The position numbers and the translations under genes were made by a program. Under the pieces are notes generated by a model. It did not search any database, had not been told where the DNA came from, and saw only the letters and a list, made by a program, of their open reading frames with translations. A DNA stretch of 64,000 bases from Tenacibaculum sp. SZ-18 (lineage in GTDB: Bacteria; Bacteroidota; Bacteroidia; Flavobacteriales; Flavobacteriaceae). Of this stretch, positions 5,925-44,702 are shown in pieces. Every line of letters begins with the position of its first letter. Position 1 is the stretch's first letter. Location: the NCBI RefSeq assembly GCF_002813915.1, contig NZ_CP019335.1:1223777-1287776 (forward strand), given 5' to 3'.

Positions 5925-6113
5925 ATGAAAAACGTATTAAATTTAGGTAAGAAATTATCAAGTAAAGAACAAAAAAATGTTAAAGGAGGAATAGGATTGA
6001 GTGATTCAACTGTAGTAGAGCGATGTAAATCAGCTTGTGAGTTTGATCCAATCGATGTAGCTCAATGTAAAAAAGATTGTGAAGGTTTAGGATCAGGAGT
6101 ATCTTTATTCTAA
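5925..6113 (+). CDS. Double-glycine-leader peptide with twin CX3C motif
   Basis: A 62-residue peptide. Residues 1-22 form a bacteriocin-type leader (NLGKKLSSKEQKNVKGG) ending in Gly-Gly, the cut site recognised by C39 peptidase-containing ABC exporters. The predicted mature part starts IGLSDSTVVERCKSAC and has exactly four cysteines in two C-x3-C pairs separated by nine residues, a pattern suited to two helices stapled by two disulfides. It contains Asp, Glu and Lys but little hydrophobicity, so a pore-forming bacteriocin is not obvious. The gene stands alone between the LytTR regulator and a strong terminator. The function (signal, bacteriocin or other secreted microprotein) is not known; no exporter gene is in the window. 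Confidence 0.8.
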   Translation: MKNVLNLGKKLSSKEQKNVKGGIGLSDSTVVERCKSACEFDPIDVAQCKKDCEGLGSGVSLF

Positions 6114-31954: not shown

Positions 31955-32149
31955 ATGTTAAAAAACATTGAAAATTTAGGAAAGTCCCTTAGTAAAAAAG
32001 AACAAAAGCAAGTAGAAGGTGGTTTCGGAAACATACCTTGTAGAACAAACAGAGATTGCTGGAATGCTTATCCTTTCTTAGGACCTGGAGACGTTTCATG
32101 TAGAAATAGTTGGACAGGATGGGGAGGAAGAGTATGCATATTTAATTAA
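31955..32149 (+). CDS. Double-glycine-leader peptide with four cysteines
   Basis: A 64-residue peptide. The leader MLKNIENLGKSLSKKEQKQV ends in EGG at residues 21-23. The predicted mature part is about 41 residues with Cys at four positions (IPCRTNRDCWNAYPF, DVSCRNSWTGWGGRVCIFN) and a high content of Trp, Gly, Asn and Arg, suggesting a compact, disulfide-bonded, cationic and aromatic peptide, as in many bacteriocins. The leader is close to that of the peptide at 5925-6113 (NLGKxLSxKEQKxV), so both probably use one exporter, which is not in the window. It is followed by its own terminator. Confidence 0.8.
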   Translation: MLKNIENLGKSLSKKEQKQVEGGFGNIPCRTNRDCWNAYPFLGPGDVSCRNSWTGWGGRVCIFN

Positions 32150-38057: not shown

Positions 38058-38894
38058 ATGGAAGTAATTAAGACCTATTTTGAAAACATGCCAACGCTAC
38101 ATAGGAGTATGCTATTGGTTGGAGGAATTTCATTTTTTTGGCTCATAGAGAGTGGAGTACCTTTATTTAAATTTGGCTATAACAAATGGAAACATGCTTG
38201 GCCGAATTTATTTTTTACAGGAACTACAGTAATTATCAATTTTGCACTCGCGTTTCTTTTATTACAAACTTCTTTTTGGGTAGAAGAAAATCAATTCGGT
38301 TTAATTAATTGGCTACCAGAAATGCCTTTATGGGCTTACATTGCAATAGGTGTTTTATTCTTAGATTTTTTCGGAGCGTATTTAGCTCATTTAGTAGAGC
38401 ATAAGTTTATTCCATTATGGATGGTTCATTTAGTTCATCATTCAGATCATAAAGTTGATACGACAACAGCAAACAGACATCATCCTATAGAAAGCGTAAT
38501 TCGTTTTGCGTTTACATTATTAGGTGTCTTTTTAGTAGGCACTCCTTTTTATATTATTATGTTATATCAGTCTTTATCTTTAATATTTACACAATTTACT
38601 CATGCGAATATAAAAATGCCAAGAACATTAGATAAGGTATTAAGTTATGTAATAGTTTCTCCTGATATGCACAAAGTGCATCATCATAATTTGTTGCCTT
38701 ATACCGACTCGAACTTTGGAAATATCTTTTCTATTTGGGATCGATTATTAGGAACTTACATGGAGCTAGATAGGGATAAAATCGTATATGGAGTTGATAC
38801 ATTCCCAGATGAAGTAAAAAATTCAAACTTGGCAGAATTATTAAAACAACCGTTTCAGGGATATCGAAAACCGACGAACTTGGAAAAGTTATAA
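38058..38894 (+). CDS. Sterol desaturase / fatty-acid hydroxylase superfamily protein
   Basis: A 278-residue membrane protein with a di-iron site formed by histidine boxes: AHLVEHKF (HxxxH, near 114-118), VHLVHHSDHK (HxxHH), NRHHPIES, and MHKVHHHNLL near 210. About four to five membrane helices surround them. Such enzymes hydroxylate or desaturate lipids or carotenoids with oxygen. The substrate cannot be inferred; no lipid gene is adjacent. It is followed by a strong bidirectional terminator. Confidence 0.9.
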   Translation: MEVIKTYFENMPTLHRSMLLVGGISFFWLIESGVPLFKFGYNKWKHAWPNLFFTGTTVIINFALAFLLLQTSFWVEENQFGLINWLPEMPLWAYIAIGVLFLDFFGAYLAHLVEHKFIPLWMVHLVHHSDHKVDTTTANRHHPIESVIRFAFTLLGVFLVGTPFYIIMLYQSLSLIFTQFTHANIKMPRTLDKVLSYVIVSPDMHKVHHHNLLPYTDSNFGNIFSIWDRLLGTYMELDRDKIVYGVDTFPDEVKNSNLAELLKQPFQGYRKPTNLEKL

Positions 38895-38929: not shown

Positions 38930-39190
38930 TTAGATTCTAAAACACTTATATCTTCTATCTGTCAAACTTAAATCTGTTTCAGATTTAAAATACTGCACGT
39001 GGTTGTAAGACGCTGTGCTTGCTGAGTAGCACATAAATTGCCAATTCGGTGTTACAGGACCGTCTGGATCCCCTGGATTTATTGGGGTTGAATTATAAGG
39101 ATTTCCAAAACCACCACCACCGTTAATTCTTTTTTGATCTTTTGCTGGAATTTTTTCCACTCCCTTTACATTTAAAATGCTTTTTTTCAT
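38930..39190 (-). CDS. Double-glycine-leader peptide, F-x-C-Y type (86 residues)
   Basis: An 86-residue protein. The leader is MKKSILNVKGVEKIPAKDQK followed by RINGGGG (cut probably after residue 25 or 26). The mature part has an N-terminal Gly/Pro/Asn-rich linker (NPYNSTPINPGDPDGPVTP) and a compact end with FMCYSASTASYNHVQYFKSE and a second Cys four residues from the end (RRYKCFRI). Two Cys can form one disulfide. Exact length, the F-x-C-Y segment and the late Cys are shared with the peptides at 43339 and 43757, on the far side of four lipoprotein genes, so I treat them as one family. Target unknown. Confidence 0.75.
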   Translation of the reverse strand: MKKSILNVKGVEKIPAKDQKRINGGGGFGNPYNSTPINPGDPDGPVTPNWQFMCYSASTASYNHVQYFKSETDLSLTDRRYKCFRI

Positions 39191-39310
39191 GATTTAATTT
39201 TTTAATTAATATTGGTTGCAAATTAGTGCAGATTAAAAAAGCATAGACAAGGAATTTGCCTTAATTATTATAGTATTTATCGCTAAAAATTTTAGGTATA
39301 AAAAATGAAT

Positions 39311-40264
39311 TTATAGGTGAATTAACTCTGTTCTAATATTGATTTTTTGTTTTTTACGAGTGGAATTTATCTTCTGATTTAAATGTAAATAATCTTCAAT
39401 AGATAAATCTAAATCAATACTTATTAAATAGTTTAAGTCAGTTTTTAGAGTATCTAGTTTTGCGAAATGATCTTTAGATTTTATAACAACGATTTCTGGT
39501 TTGAATTCGTTTATATAATCTGTTCTAGTAATATCAGATTCTCTTGGAGGTGGTCCATTTTTTAAAAGTTGCTCCTTAAATAACTCAATTCTAATGTCGT
39601 AAAAATGGAATAGTCTATTTTGAAAATCATATTGTGTAACAAGTGTTATGACATTATGATTCATAGCATCTAAATAAGGGAAGATTTTTGATAAATCTTT
39701 GGTTGTTAAATTTTGTCCTAAAATTAAATATGGTCTATAGTGTACTGGTTTTCCTCCACTGCACGTTGTAGAGTTTAAAAAAAGAGGAATATCTTCAATA
39801 GTTGTAATTTTATCATTTAATATAACTTTTAGCTCATTTTCTTCATTCTTAAATAATTTAAAAGAGATAGATGAATAATGATCTATACTATCAGAATGAA
39901 CTAGTTTTTTTGATTTAATATTTATAAAATCTATTTTCTCGTAGACTTCGTTTACATTATATGATAACTTAAAGTAAGTGTAGTTATTTAAAAGGAGTGA
40001 AGAGTCTTTAGTATTGTATTTTAAATATTCTTCATAGATTTCATTATTAATAATTATGGAAATAGAATCTTCTTTTAATTTAAACTTTCCATATGAGCTG
40101 AATCCTAAACTGTTATTTATTATAATAGAGTCCTTAATAAACTTGATTTGATAGTCACTAGAATTCTCATAATTCCGCCAAACACCTTCCAAATCTTTTT
40201 CTGAAACTTTTTGAGAGCATGATAATATGGATAAAGAGAGTATTACTACAATTATTTGTTTCAT
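39311..40264 (-). CDS. Lipoprotein, type A copy 1
   Basis: A 317-residue lipoprotein, last of four tandem paralogues. MKQIIVVILSLSILSCSQKV has a lipobox with Cys16. Residues about 20-105 (KDLEGVWRNYENSS, IKFIKDSIIINNS) look like a small lipocalin-type barrel. Residues about 135-215 (NELKVILNDKITTIEDIPLF; PYLILGQNLTTKDLSKIFPY; VITLVTQYDF) and about 250-317 (VVIKSKDHFAKLDTLKTDLN; YLISIDLDLSIEDYLHL; INIRTELI) show the strand-helix-strand order of ExbD/TolR periplasmic domains; this is an inference from pattern only. The order A-B-A-B and 19-base gaps mark unit duplication. Confidence 0.75.
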   Translation of the reverse strand: MKQIIVVILSLSILSCSQKVSEKDLEGVWRNYENSSDYQIKFIKDSIIINNSLGFSSYGKFKLKEDSISIIINNEIYEEYLKYNTKDSSLLLNNYTYFKLSYNVNEVYEKIDFINIKSKKLVHSDSIDHYSSISFKLFKNEENELKVILNDKITTIEDIPLFLNSTTCSGGKPVHYRPYLILGQNLTTKDLSKIFPYLDAMNHNVITLVTQYDFQNRLFHFYDIRIELFKEQLLKNGPPPRESDITRTDYINEFKPEIVVIKSKDHFAKLDTLKTDLNYLISIDLDLSIEDYLHLNQKINSTRKKQKINIRTELIHL

Positions 40265-40283
40265 GATGTCTTTTTCTTTTGAT

Positions 40284-41264
40284 TTAGTTTTTTATCTCAA
40301 TTAACTCTGTTCTAATTTTTATGTTTTTGTTTGTTCGAATATTGTTGATTTTATGGATTAGTTTGAAGTATTTCTTAATTGGAATATCAATATTGATACT
40401 TATTAAATAATTAGAATTTATTTCAATGTTATCTAATTTTTCAAAATCTCTTTCAGATTTTAATTGAAGCAATTTAGGTTTGAAGTATTTTATATAAGCT
40501 TTTTTGTTTTCATATTGAATTAAACTTGGAGGCGGATTTATTTTTTCCTCTTTTTGGATTGGAGGAATTTCTTCATTCCAAACATCTGCATAGCAAGTAT
40601 AAATATCATATGTTTTCTTACTAATATCAACCTTAGTTATGAAGTTTACTTTAAGAGCGTTGTGTTTTGCCATATCAATAAAGAATGATTTCAATTGCTT
40701 TAAATTTGATATTTCAGAACTTAAAAAGACATTCCAACCACCTTTATCGAAATCAGTTAAATATTGATGTAAAATTTCAGTTAAGGGTAAATATTCATCT
40801 ACCATATAATAAGTTGGTTTGAAAGAGTTATCCAATAGATGAAAAGTATTGATGTAGCTATTTAATTCTTTAGTAGACATTTTAATATCAGATTCTAGGT
40901 CAATTAAGTTATAATTCAACTCATTTTTTAATGAAGATTGATACTTTTCATATGTATTACTATCAAATTCTAATATTGAATCACATTTATAAAAATTGAA
41001 ATTATATTCTAGCGAGTCTTTAAAAGAAATACATATTGTATCTTTTTTAATTTTATATGTACCTTGAAATGAATAGCCAAAATAATCTATTAGTTTGGCA
41101 TTATTTCCTTTGAAGATAATTTGATTAAAAAATGGATAATTTACTCCATTTTCAGAATTATAAATTGGATTAAATTTCCAACTACCCTCCAAATCTTTTT
41201 TTGAAACTTTTTGAGAGCATGATAATATAGATAAAGAGAGTACTACTACAATTATTTGTTTCAT
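40284..41264 (-). CDS. Lipoprotein, type B copy 1
   Basis: A 326-residue lipoprotein with the same signal as the type A copies (MKQIIVVVLSLSILSCSQKV, Cys16) but a type B body: KDLEGSWKFNPIYNSENGVN, LEYNFNFYKCDSILEFDSNT, and a C-terminal part (LLQLKSERDFEKLDNIEINS; YLISINIDIPIKKYFKL). The last 130 or so residues and a second block in the middle appear identical at DNA level to type B copy 2, while the region between and the N-terminus differ, so the gene is a mosaic. The C-terminal domain is alignable with that of type A. Confidence 0.75.
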   Translation of the reverse strand: MKQIIVVVLSLSILSCSQKVSKKDLEGSWKFNPIYNSENGVNYPFFNQIIFKGNNAKLIDYFGYSFQGTYKIKKDTICISFKDSLEYNFNFYKCDSILEFDSNTYEKYQSSLKNELNYNLIDLESDIKMSTKELNSYINTFHLLDNSFKPTYYMVDEYLPLTEILHQYLTDFDKGGWNVFLSSEISNLKQLKSFFIDMAKHNALKVNFITKVDISKKTYDIYTCYADVWNEEIPPIQKEEKINPPPSLIQYENKKAYIKYFKPKLLQLKSERDFEKLDNIEINSNYLISINIDIPIKKYFKLIHKINNIRTNKNIKIRTELIEIKN

Positions 41265-41283
41265 GATAGCTTTTTCTTTTTAA

Positions 41284-42249
41284 TTAGTTTTTTGTCTCAA
41301 TTAACTCTGTTCTAATATTGCCATTTTGCTTTTTACGAAGAGTGTTAATTTTCTGATTTAAATGTAAATACTCCTCAATAGGTAAATCTAAATCAATACT
41401 TATTAAATAGTTTAAGTCAGTTTTTAGAGTATCTAGTTTTACAAAATCTTCTTTAGATTTTATGACAACGTTTTCTGGTTTGAATTTATTGATATAGTCT
41501 TTTCGATAAATATCTTTTTTGGTATGAGGAACAAGTTCTAAAGTCTGTTCTCTAAAAATCTCAATATTTACTTTATACGAATGAAATAACCGATTTAGAA
41601 AATCGTAATGAGTCAAAATATGAATGCTATCATAATTAACAACATTCGAATAGATATAAATTTCTTTTAAATCTTCTAAGTTAATTTTTTCTCCTAACAG
41701 TAAATAAGGAGGATGATTTATATGGTTGTCACCAAAGCAATTAGTTACAAGAAGAAAGGAAGATAAATCTTCGACCGATGTTGTTGCGTCATTTAGTACT
41801 AGTTTTAATTCATTTCTTCCGTTTTTAAATGCTCGAAAAATACTGGAGTGACTTAAATTTAGACTGTCAGAATGCATTGTTTTAGTTGATTTAATATTTA
41901 TGAGATCAAATTTTTTATGAACGATGCCGGATGAATCTGCAGCGTTGAATCTCTTGTAGTATCTAGCGTTTTTGTATGAAAGTATTGAATCTTTATAATT
42001 ATATTTTAAAAAGTCAGTTTTAGTGTTTCCTTCAAAAGATATTAAAATACTATCTTTTTTAAGTTTATATCTCGCTTTATTTGGAAGGCCATAACCATTG
42101 TCTATTGTAATAGAGTCGTTCTTAAATGTGAGTTCACCATCACCAGTTCCATCATAAAACCACCAAACACCTTCCAAATCTTTTTTTGAAACTTTTTGAG
42201 AGCATGATAATATGAATAAAGAAAGTATTACTACAATTATTTGTTTCAT
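41284..42249 (-). CDS. Lipoprotein, type A copy 2
   Basis: A 321-residue lipoprotein (signal MKQIIVVILSLFILSCSQKV, Cys16). The body follows type A copy 1: KDLEGVWWFYDGTGDGELTF, then NELKLVLNDATTSVEDLSSF, PYLLLGEKINLEDLKEIYIY and the end YLISIDLDLPIEEYLHLNQK. Identity with copy 1 is highest in the signal and in the C-terminal 80 residues and lower in the middle, as in the B pair. It is the second gene of the four-gene lipoprotein run, which shows 19 bases between each pair of genes. Confidence 0.75.
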   Translation of the reverse strand: MKQIIVVILSLFILSCSQKVSKKDLEGVWWFYDGTGDGELTFKNDSITIDNGYGLPNKARYKLKKDSILISFEGNTKTDFLKYNYKDSILSYKNARYYKRFNAADSSGIVHKKFDLINIKSTKTMHSDSLNLSHSSIFRAFKNGRNELKLVLNDATTSVEDLSSFLLVTNCFGDNHINHPPYLLLGEKINLEDLKEIYIYSNVVNYDSIHILTHYDFLNRLFHSYKVNIEIFREQTLELVPHTKKDIYRKDYINKFKPENVVIKSKEDFVKLDTLKTDLNYLISIDLDLPIEEYLHLNQKINTLRKKQNGNIRTELIETKN

Positions 42250-42268
42250 GATATCTTTTTCTTTTGAT

Positions 42269-43255
42269 TTAGTTTTTTATCTCAATTAACTCTGTTCTAA
42301 TTTTTATGTTTTTGTTTGTTCGAATATTGTTGATTTTATGGATTAGTTTGAAGTATTTCTTAATTGGAATATCAATATTGATACTTATTAAATAATTAGA
42401 ATTTATTTCAATGTTATCTAATTTTTCAAAATCTCTTTCAGATTTTAATTGAAGCAATTTAGGTTTGAAGTATTTTATATAAGCTTTTTTGTTTTCATAT
42501 TGAATTAAACTTGGAGGCGGATTTATTTTTTCCTCTTTTTGGATTGGAGGAATTTCTTCATTCCAAACATCTGCATAGCAAGTATAAATATCATATGTTT
42601 TCTTACTAATATCAACCTTAGTTATGAAGTTTACTTTAAGAGCGTTGTGTTTTGCCATATCAATATAGAATGATTTCAATAGTTTTAAGTTTGATATTTT
42701 GTCACTTAAAAATACATTCCAACCACCTTTTTCAAAATGAATTGAATTATGATGAAAAATTTCATTTAAGGGTAAATATTCATTATACATATAGTAAGTT
42801 GGCTTGAAGGATTTGTCTAATAAATGAAAAGTATTGATGTAGCTTTTTAATTCTTTGGCAGACATTTTAATATCAGATTCTAGGTCAATTAAGTTATAAT
42901 TCAACTCATTTTTTAATGAAGATTGATACTTTTCATATGTATTACTATCAAATTCTAATATTGAATCACATTTATAAAAATTGAAATTATATTCTAGCGA
43001 GTCTTTAAAAAAAATATTTATTGAATCTTTTCTTATTTCAAATGTACCGGGTAATGAGAAACCGAAATAATCGATTAGTATAGCATTATTCCCTTTGAAA
43101 TTGATTTGATTAAAAAATGGGTAATTTTCTTCATGTTCAGAATCATAAATTGGATTTGATTTCCAACTTCCCTCCAAATCTTTTTTTGAAACTTTTTGAG
43201 AACATGATAATAAGACTAAAACAAATCCTATGAATAGCAATTTTTTCATTTTCAA
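42269..43255 (-). CDS. Lipoprotein, type B copy 2 (first gene of the run)
   Basis: A 328-residue lipoprotein. Its signal (MKMKKLLFIGFVLVLLSCSQ, Cys18) differs from the three others, which suggests that the downstream genes were copied from each other while this one kept an older 5' end. The body is type B: KDLEGSWKSNPIYDSEHEEN, INFKGNNAILIDYFGFSLPG, FHLLDKSFKPTYYMYNEYLP, KLLQLKSERDFEKLDNIEIN. It starts only about 35 bases past the hairpin terminator of the peptide gene upstream, so it relies on read-through or a promoter in that short gap. Confidence 0.75.
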   Translation of the reverse strand: MKMKKLLFIGFVLVLLSCSQKVSKKDLEGSWKSNPIYDSEHEENYPFFNQINFKGNNAILIDYFGFSLPGTFEIRKDSINIFFKDSLEYNFNFYKCDSILEFDSNTYEKYQSSLKNELNYNLIDLESDIKMSAKELKSYINTFHLLDKSFKPTYYMYNEYLPLNEIFHHNSIHFEKGGWNVFLSDKISNLKLLKSFYIDMAKHNALKVNFITKVDISKKTYDIYTCYADVWNEEIPPIQKEEKINPPPSLIQYENKKAYIKYFKPKLLQLKSERDFEKLDNIEINSNYLISINIDIPIKKYFKLIHKINNIRTNKNIKIRTELIEIKN

Positions 43256-43283
43256 ATTTTAATGAAATATACAAAAACAGCAT

Positions 43284-43311
43284 AAAAAAAGCGAACTTTT
43301 TAAAGTTCGCT
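43284..43311 (-). terminator. Hairpin between the second peptide gene and the lipoprotein run
   Basis: Stem AGCGAACTTT (43290-43299) with AAAGTTCGCT (43302-43311); on the minus strand seven T follow. It resembles the hairpin at 43731-43750 (shared GCGAACT...AGTTCGC), so both came from duplication of a peptide-plus-terminator unit. Confidence 0.85.
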
Positions 43312-43338
43312 AAATTTTAGAGTGATAATTTTCAGGAA

Positions 43339-43599
43339 TTAATATGGCCAACAGATATATACACTACCAGTTTCGTCATAATAAGAAATATGACTAAAAC
43401 TATTCGGATTTTGATATCTTGTGTAACATGCGAACTTACCACCAGGGGTCCAATAATCTTTATCGTCCTCACTTAGCGTTGAACCAACAGAAACGGTAGA
43501 ACTTGTTCCAGAACCTCTTCCACCTTTTCCTTTCACAGCTTCGGTTTCATTTTTGGTCAATTCTTGTACTCCATCTAACTTTAAAATTCTTTTTAACAT
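43339..43599 (-). CDS. Double-glycine-leader peptide, F-x-C-Y type (86 residues), second copy
   Basis: An 86-residue protein with leader MLKRILKLDGVQELTKNETE then AVKGKGG (cut after residue 27). The linker is Gly/Ser/Thr-rich (RGSGTSSTVSVGSTLSEDDK), and the end is FACYTRYQNPNSFSHISYYD with a final Cys in YICWPY. Exact length and Cys layout match the peptides at 38930 and 43757. It carries its own terminator directly before the lipoprotein run. A motif TAATATTTTC (reverse strand GAAAATATTA) lies 60-70 bases upstream, as in the gene at 43757. Confidence 0.75.
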   Translation of the reverse strand: MLKRILKLDGVQELTKNETEAVKGKGGRGSGTSSTVSVGSTLSEDDKDYWTPGGKFACYTRYQNPNSFSHISYYDETGSVYICWPY

Positions 43600-43659
43600 G
43601 ATTGATTTTATTTTTAGGTTAATATTTTAAAGTTATCGAAACGCCAGCCTTAAGTAAAT

Positions 43660-43669
43660 TAATATTTTC
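43660..43669 (-). promoter_or_regulatory. Shared upstream motif of the second peptide gene
   Basis: GAAAATATTA on the minus strand, preceded by TTTCG, 61-70 bases upstream of ATG 43599. The same motif preceded by TTTCA stands 59-68 bases upstream of the neighbouring peptide gene (44076-44085). It could be part of a promoter or regulator site, or just residual similarity after duplication. Confidence 0.4.
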
Positions 43670-43724
43670 CGAAACTGTCGTTTTAGTTTATAAAAGGACG
43701 TATTTATTTTTTAAGAGTATAAAT

Positions 43725-43750
43725 AAAAAAGGCGAACTATGTAGTTCGCC
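43725..43750 (-). terminator. Terminator of the third peptide gene
   Basis: Stem GGCGAACTA (43731-43739) with TAGTTCGCC (43742-43750); T run on the minus strand. It lies 7 bases past the stop of the gene at 43757. Confidence 0.88.
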
Positions 43751-43756
43751 CAAATT

Positions 43757-44017
43757 TTAATTTAATACCGGTCCTAAAGGATCAGAAATTGAATCATCAA
43801 ATTGGTAATTTGGATTAAATGGAAAACAAACGGTTGTAGGCGAACTTAAATCTATTGGTGAAATAAAGAATCTGTTACCAGAGTTATTTCTATAACACTT
43901 AAATGAAACATTAGGGTTATCGTCGATAATACCATCTAAATGACCGCCGTTAATTGCCTTTTGTTCTTCAGTACTTAATTGCTGAATATCGATTAAGTTT
44001 AAAATGTTTTTTGACAT
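43757..44017 (-). CDS. Double-glycine-leader peptide, F-x-C-Y type (86 residues), third copy
   Basis: An 86-residue protein from ATG 44017; the frame is open further upstream, overlapping the HEAT-like gene, but the leader starts here. MSKNILNLIDIQQLSTEEQK then AINGG is a textbook double-glycine leader (cut after residue 25). The mature part has VSFKCYRNNSGNRFFISPID, a second Cys in TTVCFPFN, and an acidic tail (FDDSISDPLGPVLN) that the other two copies lack. Same length and motif as its two relatives. Own terminator at 43731-43750. Confidence 0.78.
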   Translation of the reverse strand: MSKNILNLIDIQQLSTEEQKAINGGHLDGIIDDNPNVSFKCYRNNSGNRFFISPIDLSSPTTVCFPFNPNYQFDDSISDPLGPVLN

Positions 44018-44114: not shown

Positions 44115-44702
44115 TTATTTTTCCAATTGTGCATCCATGTCAAGTAATTCAAGAATTTTTCTACCACGTGCTGTACATCCTTTTCCTTCATGAATAACTT
44201 TACTTCTAATAATATATTTTAATTCAGGATGAACCCAATCTTGATATTTACCGAAAACATATAAAGTAGTCATAGTGTAAGCTTTTACAGCAATTTTTTT
44301 ATCAGTCATTAACCAGTCAAATCCAGTTTCTATGATTCTCGTGATATGATCGTTGGTGAGAAGCTGTTTAGTTCTATTTTCTTCCTTATTTGAAAAGTTA
44401 TTAGCTAAGTGCTCACAAATTTTAGCGCAGGTTCTTATAGAACCATCAAAATATAAGTGAGATAGTCCTTTTGTGAAAGTATCTAAATATGGTAAAACAT
44501 GATTAATTCCATGATGTGTACAAATCCATTCTAAAATCCAGCTAGCTTTAACCGAAATAGGATTATCCACTTTAAATGTTAAATCTACCAGTAGTTCTAT
44601 TAATTCTGGTTGTTTCAATACAATATTTGCAGCTTTAATACGATTTACTTTTTTAGGGTTTTCAATATTGTTTAATACAGAAATTAAAAAATCGATACTC
44701 AT
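44115..44702 (-). CDS. HEAT-repeat-like cytoplasmic protein
   Basis: A 195-residue all-helical protein (FLISVLNNIENPKKVNRIKA; ELIELLVDLTFKVDNPISVK; ASWILEWICTHHGINHVLPY; KIAVKAYTMTTLYVFGKYQD) with helix pairs in HEAT-like array. Proteins of this type in Flavobacteriia are, as I recall, sometimes labelled adenylosuccinate lyase; the lyase signature is absent. There is no signal peptide. It is conserved-looking and probably unrelated to the peptide locus that begins 98 bases after its end. Divergent from the MORN gene at 44766. Confidence 0.7.
   Translation of the reverse strand: MSIDFLISVLNNIENPKKVNRIKAANIVLKQPELIELLVDLTFKVDNPISVKASWILEWICTHHGINHVLPYLDTFTKGLSHLYFDGSIRTCAKICEHLANNFSNKEENRTKQLLTNDHITRIIETGFDWLMTDKKIAVKAYTMTTLYVFGKYQDWVHPELKYIIRSKVIHEGKGCTARGRKILELLDMDAQLEK

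Follow-up and report, generated by a model that had tools for sequence, protein, structure and literature searches.

Among the secreted peptides of Bacteroidota, the bacteroidetocins (class IIf, from Bacteroidales) combine a double-glycine (GG) leader with a C39 ABC exporter and a thiol oxidoreductase, and they have no evident dedicated immunity gene (PMC6671954, PMC8546649). Bacteroidetocins A and B carry 15-residue leaders and 42-residue mature peptides with four cysteines, the exporter and oxidoreductase being encoded in the same four-gene locus (PMC6671954), and killing goes via BamA (PMC8546649). Together with the pneumococcal blp locus they are the closest functional precedents for the locus described here. 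Competition by secreted small peptides in marine Flavobacteriaceae is little charted, and a search of open-licence papers turned up no work on Tenacibaculum GG peptides.

We analysed a stretch of 64,000 nucleotides (the window) from the complete, 4.02 Mb, Tenacibaculum-like genome of Tenacibaculum sp. SZ-18 (G000). A sequence-only reading of the window had described three 86-codon GG-peptide genes flanking four tandem lipoprotein genes on one strand. All seven genes were confirmed, on the minus strand, and they lie between two conserved border genes, as follows.

38058..38894, plus strand: fatty-acid hydroxylase (PF04116), the conserved gene on the left side of the variable interval
38930..39190, minus strand: P1, GG-leader peptide of 86 aa, hydroxylase-proximal, with an F-x-C-Y core, C54/C83, and its own hairpin and T-run downstream
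39311..40264, minus strand: B2, lipoprotein of the B type, lipobox LSCS
40284..41264, minus strand: A2, lipoprotein of the A type, 87% identical to A1, with the last ~360 nt identical
41284..42249, minus strand: B1, lipoprotein of the B type, with a lipocalin-like N-domain and a possibly TolR-like middle as modelled by AlphaFold2
42269..43249, minus strand: A1, lipoprotein of the A type, first in the 19-nt-spaced array
43339..43599, minus strand: P2, GG(GKG)-leader peptide of 86 aa, with an F-A-C-Y core and its own terminator-like hairpin
43757..44017, minus strand: P3, GG-leader peptide of 86 aa, with an F-K-C-Y core, a C-terminal tail and its own terminator-like hairpin
44115..44702, minus strand: ARM-type helical-repeat protein, with no more than a weak Pfam match, the conserved gene on the right side

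In the direction of the minus strand (44017 to 38930), the seven genes follow each other as P3, P2, A1, B1, A2, B2 and P1. The start of A1 is taken as the ATG at 43249 (the mechanical open reading frame begins at TTG 43255). P3 has 86 codons only from an internal ATG at 44017, the mechanical frame being 144 aa; the same start, giving 86 aa, is found in the related contig L013, which supports it. A search of genome contigs for related loci returned one contig, and the nearest named record is L013, a contig of a Tenacibaculum MAG whose MnmA is 98% identical. The four lipoprotein genes are spaced 19 nt apart and are therefore probably co-transcribed. Gaps of 89-157 nt set the peptide genes off, and a hairpin with a T run lies 3' of each of them, so the peptide genes are probably transcribed as units separate from the lipoprotein array. 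The strict Bacteroidota promoter motif (TANNTTTG) was found upstream of none of the genes of the locus, where loose matches only were seen.

Each of the three peptides has a GG leader of ~25 residues and a two-cysteine core, and they share the core pattern [FWY]-x-C … [FY]-x-S … D-[LI]-S … C, a motif formulated after inspecting the sequences. The double-glycine leaders and the F-x-C-Y segment noticed earlier are real. A conserved length and cysteine layout had been proposed as well; the length of 86 codons holds for all three genes, but the layout is loose, with C54/C83 in P1 vs C41/C64 in P3. In P1 and P2 the linker is long and the chain stops shortly past the last cysteine, whereas P3 is built differently, with a short linker and a 22-residue tail, which argues that the equal length is partly coincidence and not one conserved layout. 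The relatives are mostly 86 aa long, with lengths of 87 and 81 also seen: P1-like relatives have 86 aa, with one of 81, and P3-like relatives have 86 aa.

The relatedness of the cores was assessed with a profile built from P1-type cores only, without the leader, against 1000 shuffles per sequence. For each of the four P3 cores, no more than one of its 1000 shuffles scored as high, while the P2 cores gave p values of about 0.04-0.07. The P1 and P3 cores are thus related beyond chance and P2 only weakly so, and the earlier view that sequence outside the anchors is unrelated does not fully hold. A common origin of P1 and the short 'type II' cores was also considered and is unsupported, since despite their look-alike motif they are mostly indistinguishable from shuffles. 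AlphaFold2 modelled the peptide, with low overall confidence (61.7), as a disordered leader and linker followed by a small three-strand unit at residues 52-85 (pLDDT 74-80), with C54 and C83 placed in the first and last strands; on this model a C54-C83 disulphide is plausible. Foldseek with the peptide model returned no meaningful fold match, and searches of Pfam, NCBIfam and PDB sequences found no family covering the peptide cores. The window holds further GG-leader peptides of other types at 5925-6113 (plus strand, 62 aa) and 31955-32149 (plus strand, 64 aa), the latter with four cysteines and 80% identical in G035.

The leader type of these peptides is shared with peptides encoded beside a C39 ABC exporter elsewhere in the host genome. 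Three complete C39 ABC transporters are encoded there. The third (G000:C1:40575-42758), in which both the C39 and the ABC domain were confirmed, belongs to a set spanning 38-46 kb, about 1.2 Mb from the locus, and stands beside an HlyD adaptor, a 534-aa VKOR-thioredoxin-C39 protein and five GG peptides with MKKSIL-type leaders like that of P1 (L113/L114). The hydroxylase-ARM interval of the window itself contains no exporter or oxidoreductase gene. The other two transporters lie in lanthipeptide-like and other RiPP-like loci, with different leaders. The lanthipeptide-like locus (L115, G000:C1:1756000-1774000) encodes LanB/LanC-like enzymes (one dehydratase-like and two cyclase-like proteins) and a C39 ABC exporter, together with three precursors that are almost identical and contain KGGKAALSCLW.SCN; the RiPP-like one (L112, G000:C1:3932000-3950000) combines a LanB-like protein and a C39 ABC with HlyD-like and TolC-like genes and a precursor-like protein of 111 aa, whose long leader ends in VAGG.

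C39 domains cut after GG, and VKOR/thioredoxin proteins form disulphides. Across 79 genomes, close relatives of the peptides and of the VKOR protein occurred together in 16, the peptide only in 1, the VKOR protein only in 4 and neither in 58 (Fisher p = 4e-12, phylogeny ignored; G017 and G019, whose weak peptide matches have stops inside, were excluded from the counts). The exporter set is present in 16 of the 17 peptide-bearing genomes, the exception being G012, a 67%-complete genome, and relatives of the third ABC transporter (84% identity or more) are found in mostly the same genomes as the peptides. Peptides and exporter could both be clade markers. The sequence-only reading had suggested looking for a C39 ABC exporter elsewhere in the genome; one was found, with a VKOR oxidase, and the leader type co-occurs with the exporter set. 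From these patterns we infer that P1-P3 would be exported by the C39 ABC/VKOR set at 38-46 kb. Matches to the leader alone are spread across the genomes, with as many as 20 in one genome, and are present in 22 of 237 sampled Flavobacteriaceae genera; the host genome has at least a dozen GG peptides.

Of 79 Tenacibaculum genomes, 64 gave a match to the hydroxylase. We mapped 40 regions downstream of it, and the hydroxylase-ARM interval could be read through in 18, window included. A GG peptide lies inside the interval in 13 of these 18, nearly always adjoining the hydroxylase; in G028 and G101 a peptide adjoins the hydroxylase and the right border is unreadable. Relatives of P1 occupy the same position in L013, G035, G112, G436, G022, G056 and G107, another P2 allele (87 aa, about 40% identical) is found at the P2 position in L013 and G035, and relatives of P3 are present in L013 (81% identical), G112 and G012. 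In a search of the genus, full-length matches to the FxCY family were found at the hydroxylase-ARM address only. The interval is a fixed address for GG peptides. In other species it also holds unrelated proteins of 228, 521, 556 and 747 aa. A conserved lipoprotein pair of about 176 and 259 aa is present in the intervals of G022, G056, G027 and G114 (L044, L046, L047 and L050), and in G022, G056 and G027 it replaces the array of the window.

G022, G056 and G027 have the same interval layout. Between G022 and G027, the 5' region and leader are alike at 83 of 98 nt and the far flank (the next gene) at 95 of 100, whereas the core and terminator are unalignable (32 of 69); the core is of the 86-aa FxC type in G022 and of the 76-aa type II in G027. 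In this one comparison the core has been exchanged alone while leader and flanks stay. Between the host genome and L013, dS is 0.18-0.20 for MnmA and YkgJ and rises to 0.72 for P1 and 2.3 for P3, with P2 saturated; single values are rough, the genes being short. The dN/dS ratios of P1 (0.12-0.26) and P3 (0.04-0.42) point to purifying selection on the orthologues, and positive selection on P1/P3 is rejected on the ground of dN/dS < 1. The raised dS at hydroxylase, P1 and P3, taken with the low dN/dS, looks like allele replacement by recombination, not faster amino-acid change in place. The hydroxylase was probably replaced together with P1, because its dS is 0.89 vs about 0.2 for YkgJ and MnmA. 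The peptides had been called fast-evolving, which would be apt for whole alleles and cores, replaced fast by recombination, but not for residues under purifying selection.

We put at roughly 0.5 the probability that P1-P3 are exported, probably disulphide-stabilised, core-swapping, putative bacteriocin-like peptides at a fixed-address arsenal locus. We infer export, a disulphide and extracellular action for them along the following lines. Each peptide gene would be transcribed by itself, as a small unit that has a terminator of its own, and the leader would direct the product to the C39-peptidase ABC exporter (ABC, HlyD adaptor and VKOR/thioredoxin oxidase, 38-46 kb). The exporter would cut after GG and release a peptide of ~60 residues, consisting of a flexible linker plus a mini-domain of ~35 residues with one disulphide, and outside the cell this mini-domain would most likely be a bacteriocin-like antagonist of close relatives. 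Homologous recombination via the conserved leader and flanks would swap cores and alleles. Against the bacteriocin reading counts that the address has no constant gene dedicated to immunity.

The lipoprotein array has the arrangement A-B-A-B, with A and B about 30-35% identical. The lipoprotein assignment of the sequence-only reading is borne out by the lipobox, whose Cys16 is invariant across all 13 members. Searches against Pfam, NCBIfam and PDB sequences gave no accepted match, and an FMO-like match (E 1.8e-4, below cut-off, in one of 13 members) was rejected as chance. The family was matched in 10 of 79 Tenacibaculum genomes; in 397 sampled family genomes no full-length members were seen outside Tenacibaculum, and matches in other Flavobacteriaceae cover mostly the N-domain. 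As a full-length family, the lipoproteins appear to be restricted to Tenacibaculum. With the AlphaFold2 model of B1 (mean pLDDT 83.5), Foldseek returned nothing at E <= 0.001. The lipocalin call rests on a second look with VIA-align, in which residues 14-102 form a lipocalin-like beta-barrel (Z up to 9.6) and several lipocalin-like Bacteroides proteins top the list; residues 121-215 align with TolR (5by4) at Z 7.5 (88 residues, rmsd 4.0), which falls short of ruling out a common arrangement. Both A and B genes are more alike at their ends than in their middles, and in L013 the first two thirds of the B gene are B1-like and the rest B2-like. Homogenised ends, divergent middles and this mosaic B gene are the signature of gene conversion within the array.

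The sequence-only reading had proposed a cognate toxin/immunity or peptide/receptor locus, in which each lipoprotein would be the outer-membrane partner or protector of the neighbouring peptide. Peptides and lipoproteins are indeed co-localised in six species and associated at the genome level (p = 5e-4, phylogeny ignored), but the 18 readable intervals divide into six with both, seven with a peptide only, one with a lipoprotein only and four with neither (Fisher p = 0.32), and within exporter-bearing genomes p is 0.56, so a single clade in which both are common would suffice to produce the genome-wide signal. Relatives of P1 occur without an interval lipoprotein in G022, G056, G436 and G107 (the last has a distant lipoprotein copy elsewhere), G114 has a lipoprotein in the interval without interval peptides, and lipoproteins are present in G047, G015 and G038, genomes where these peptides were not found. 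Independent occurrence of the two kinds of gene across genomes, which the sequence-only reading had named as grounds for refuting its proposal, is therefore partly borne out. The transcription units, too, are apparently separate. Since each kind of gene occurs alone, an obligate toxin/immunity pair is not supported, and the lipoproteins are a real but optional neighbour. A cognate pairing would be in keeping with the gene conversion in the array, with the odd P2 allele occurring in the same species as the A1/A2 lipoproteins, and with the lipocalin-like fold that the lipoproteins share with potempin E (Z 8.5) and with an immunity protein of a Bacteroides T6SS (9jdd_B, Z 7.2); on balance we consider it unlikely. 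An optional partnership may still exist, given this fold in common with an immunity protein.

If the peptides are exported and bacteriocin-like, as we prefer, the lipoprotein array would be a separate, optional module of the same hotspot and, if peptide-linked at all, a surface binding or protection factor. A more specific version is doubtful: a Bacteroidota counterpart of a polymorphic bacteriocin locus, with the core of a disulphide mini-domain peptide swapped between lineages at one fixed address per chromosome, a distant shared C39/VKOR exporter, and optional gene-converting lipocalin/TolR-like lipoproteins that would provide lineage-specific surface protection.

P1-P3 might instead be extracellular pheromone-like signalling peptides whose core alleles define communication groups, which strikes us as quite improbable. 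GG peptides are classical streptococcal pheromone precursors (PMC7595303), and the allelic core exchange at a fixed locus would suit such a role, as would purifying selection within an allele; that on P1 (dN/dS 0.12-0.26) also fits a conserved signalling function. However, the address has no constant gene for a receptor, histidine kinase or regulator, and a locus can have as many as three peptides and a genome as many as 20 leader matches, beyond the usual need of signalling. A plain cargo hotspot, with peptides and lipoproteins as unrelated residents and a peptide role at the surface, in the matrix or on a eukaryotic target, could account for the unrelated genes that fill the interval in other species (the 176- and 259-aa lipoprotein pair among them), but it has little probability, as most species in the clade with the exporter have a GG peptide adjoining the hydroxylase, a more regular pattern than random cargo would give.

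The locus offers a compact test case, with natural core alleles and a candidate exporter, and the species that have peptides but no lipoproteins, or the reverse, are natural controls for the role of the lipoproteins.

Compared with known systems, P1-P3 share with bacteroidetocins the GG leader of Bacteroidota peptides, a C39 ABC exporter, a thiol oxidoreductase and the lack of an evident dedicated immunity gene. Unlike bacteroidetocins, they have leaders of ~25 aa, predicted mature peptides of ~61 aa and two cysteines, and their candidate exporter is about 1.2 Mb away, not in the same cluster. The pneumococcal blp locus is likewise a fixed chromosomal locus of GG peptides, with leader/core shuffling by recombination and one exporter for several peptides; unlike the Tenacibaculum address, it has its own regulators, exporter and immunity region, in a Gram-positive host (PMC4860687). 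NCBIfam NF047798 (leader_Chryseo) and Pfam PF14406 (Bacteroid_pep) represent the same kind of leader, and their matches are below the curated cut-offs and cover the leader region. The lipoprotein N-domain resembles lipocalin-like Bacteroidota proteins (2m4l, 4i95, potempin E 8ehc and BtaiB 9jdd_B; Z 9.6-7.2), yet the array lipoproteins differ from these and from TolR structures in having no accepted Pfam, NCBIfam or PDB sequence match. The Tenacibaculum locus would thus function in the manner of a bacteriocin-like peptide locus, but its peptides are not bacteroidetocins.
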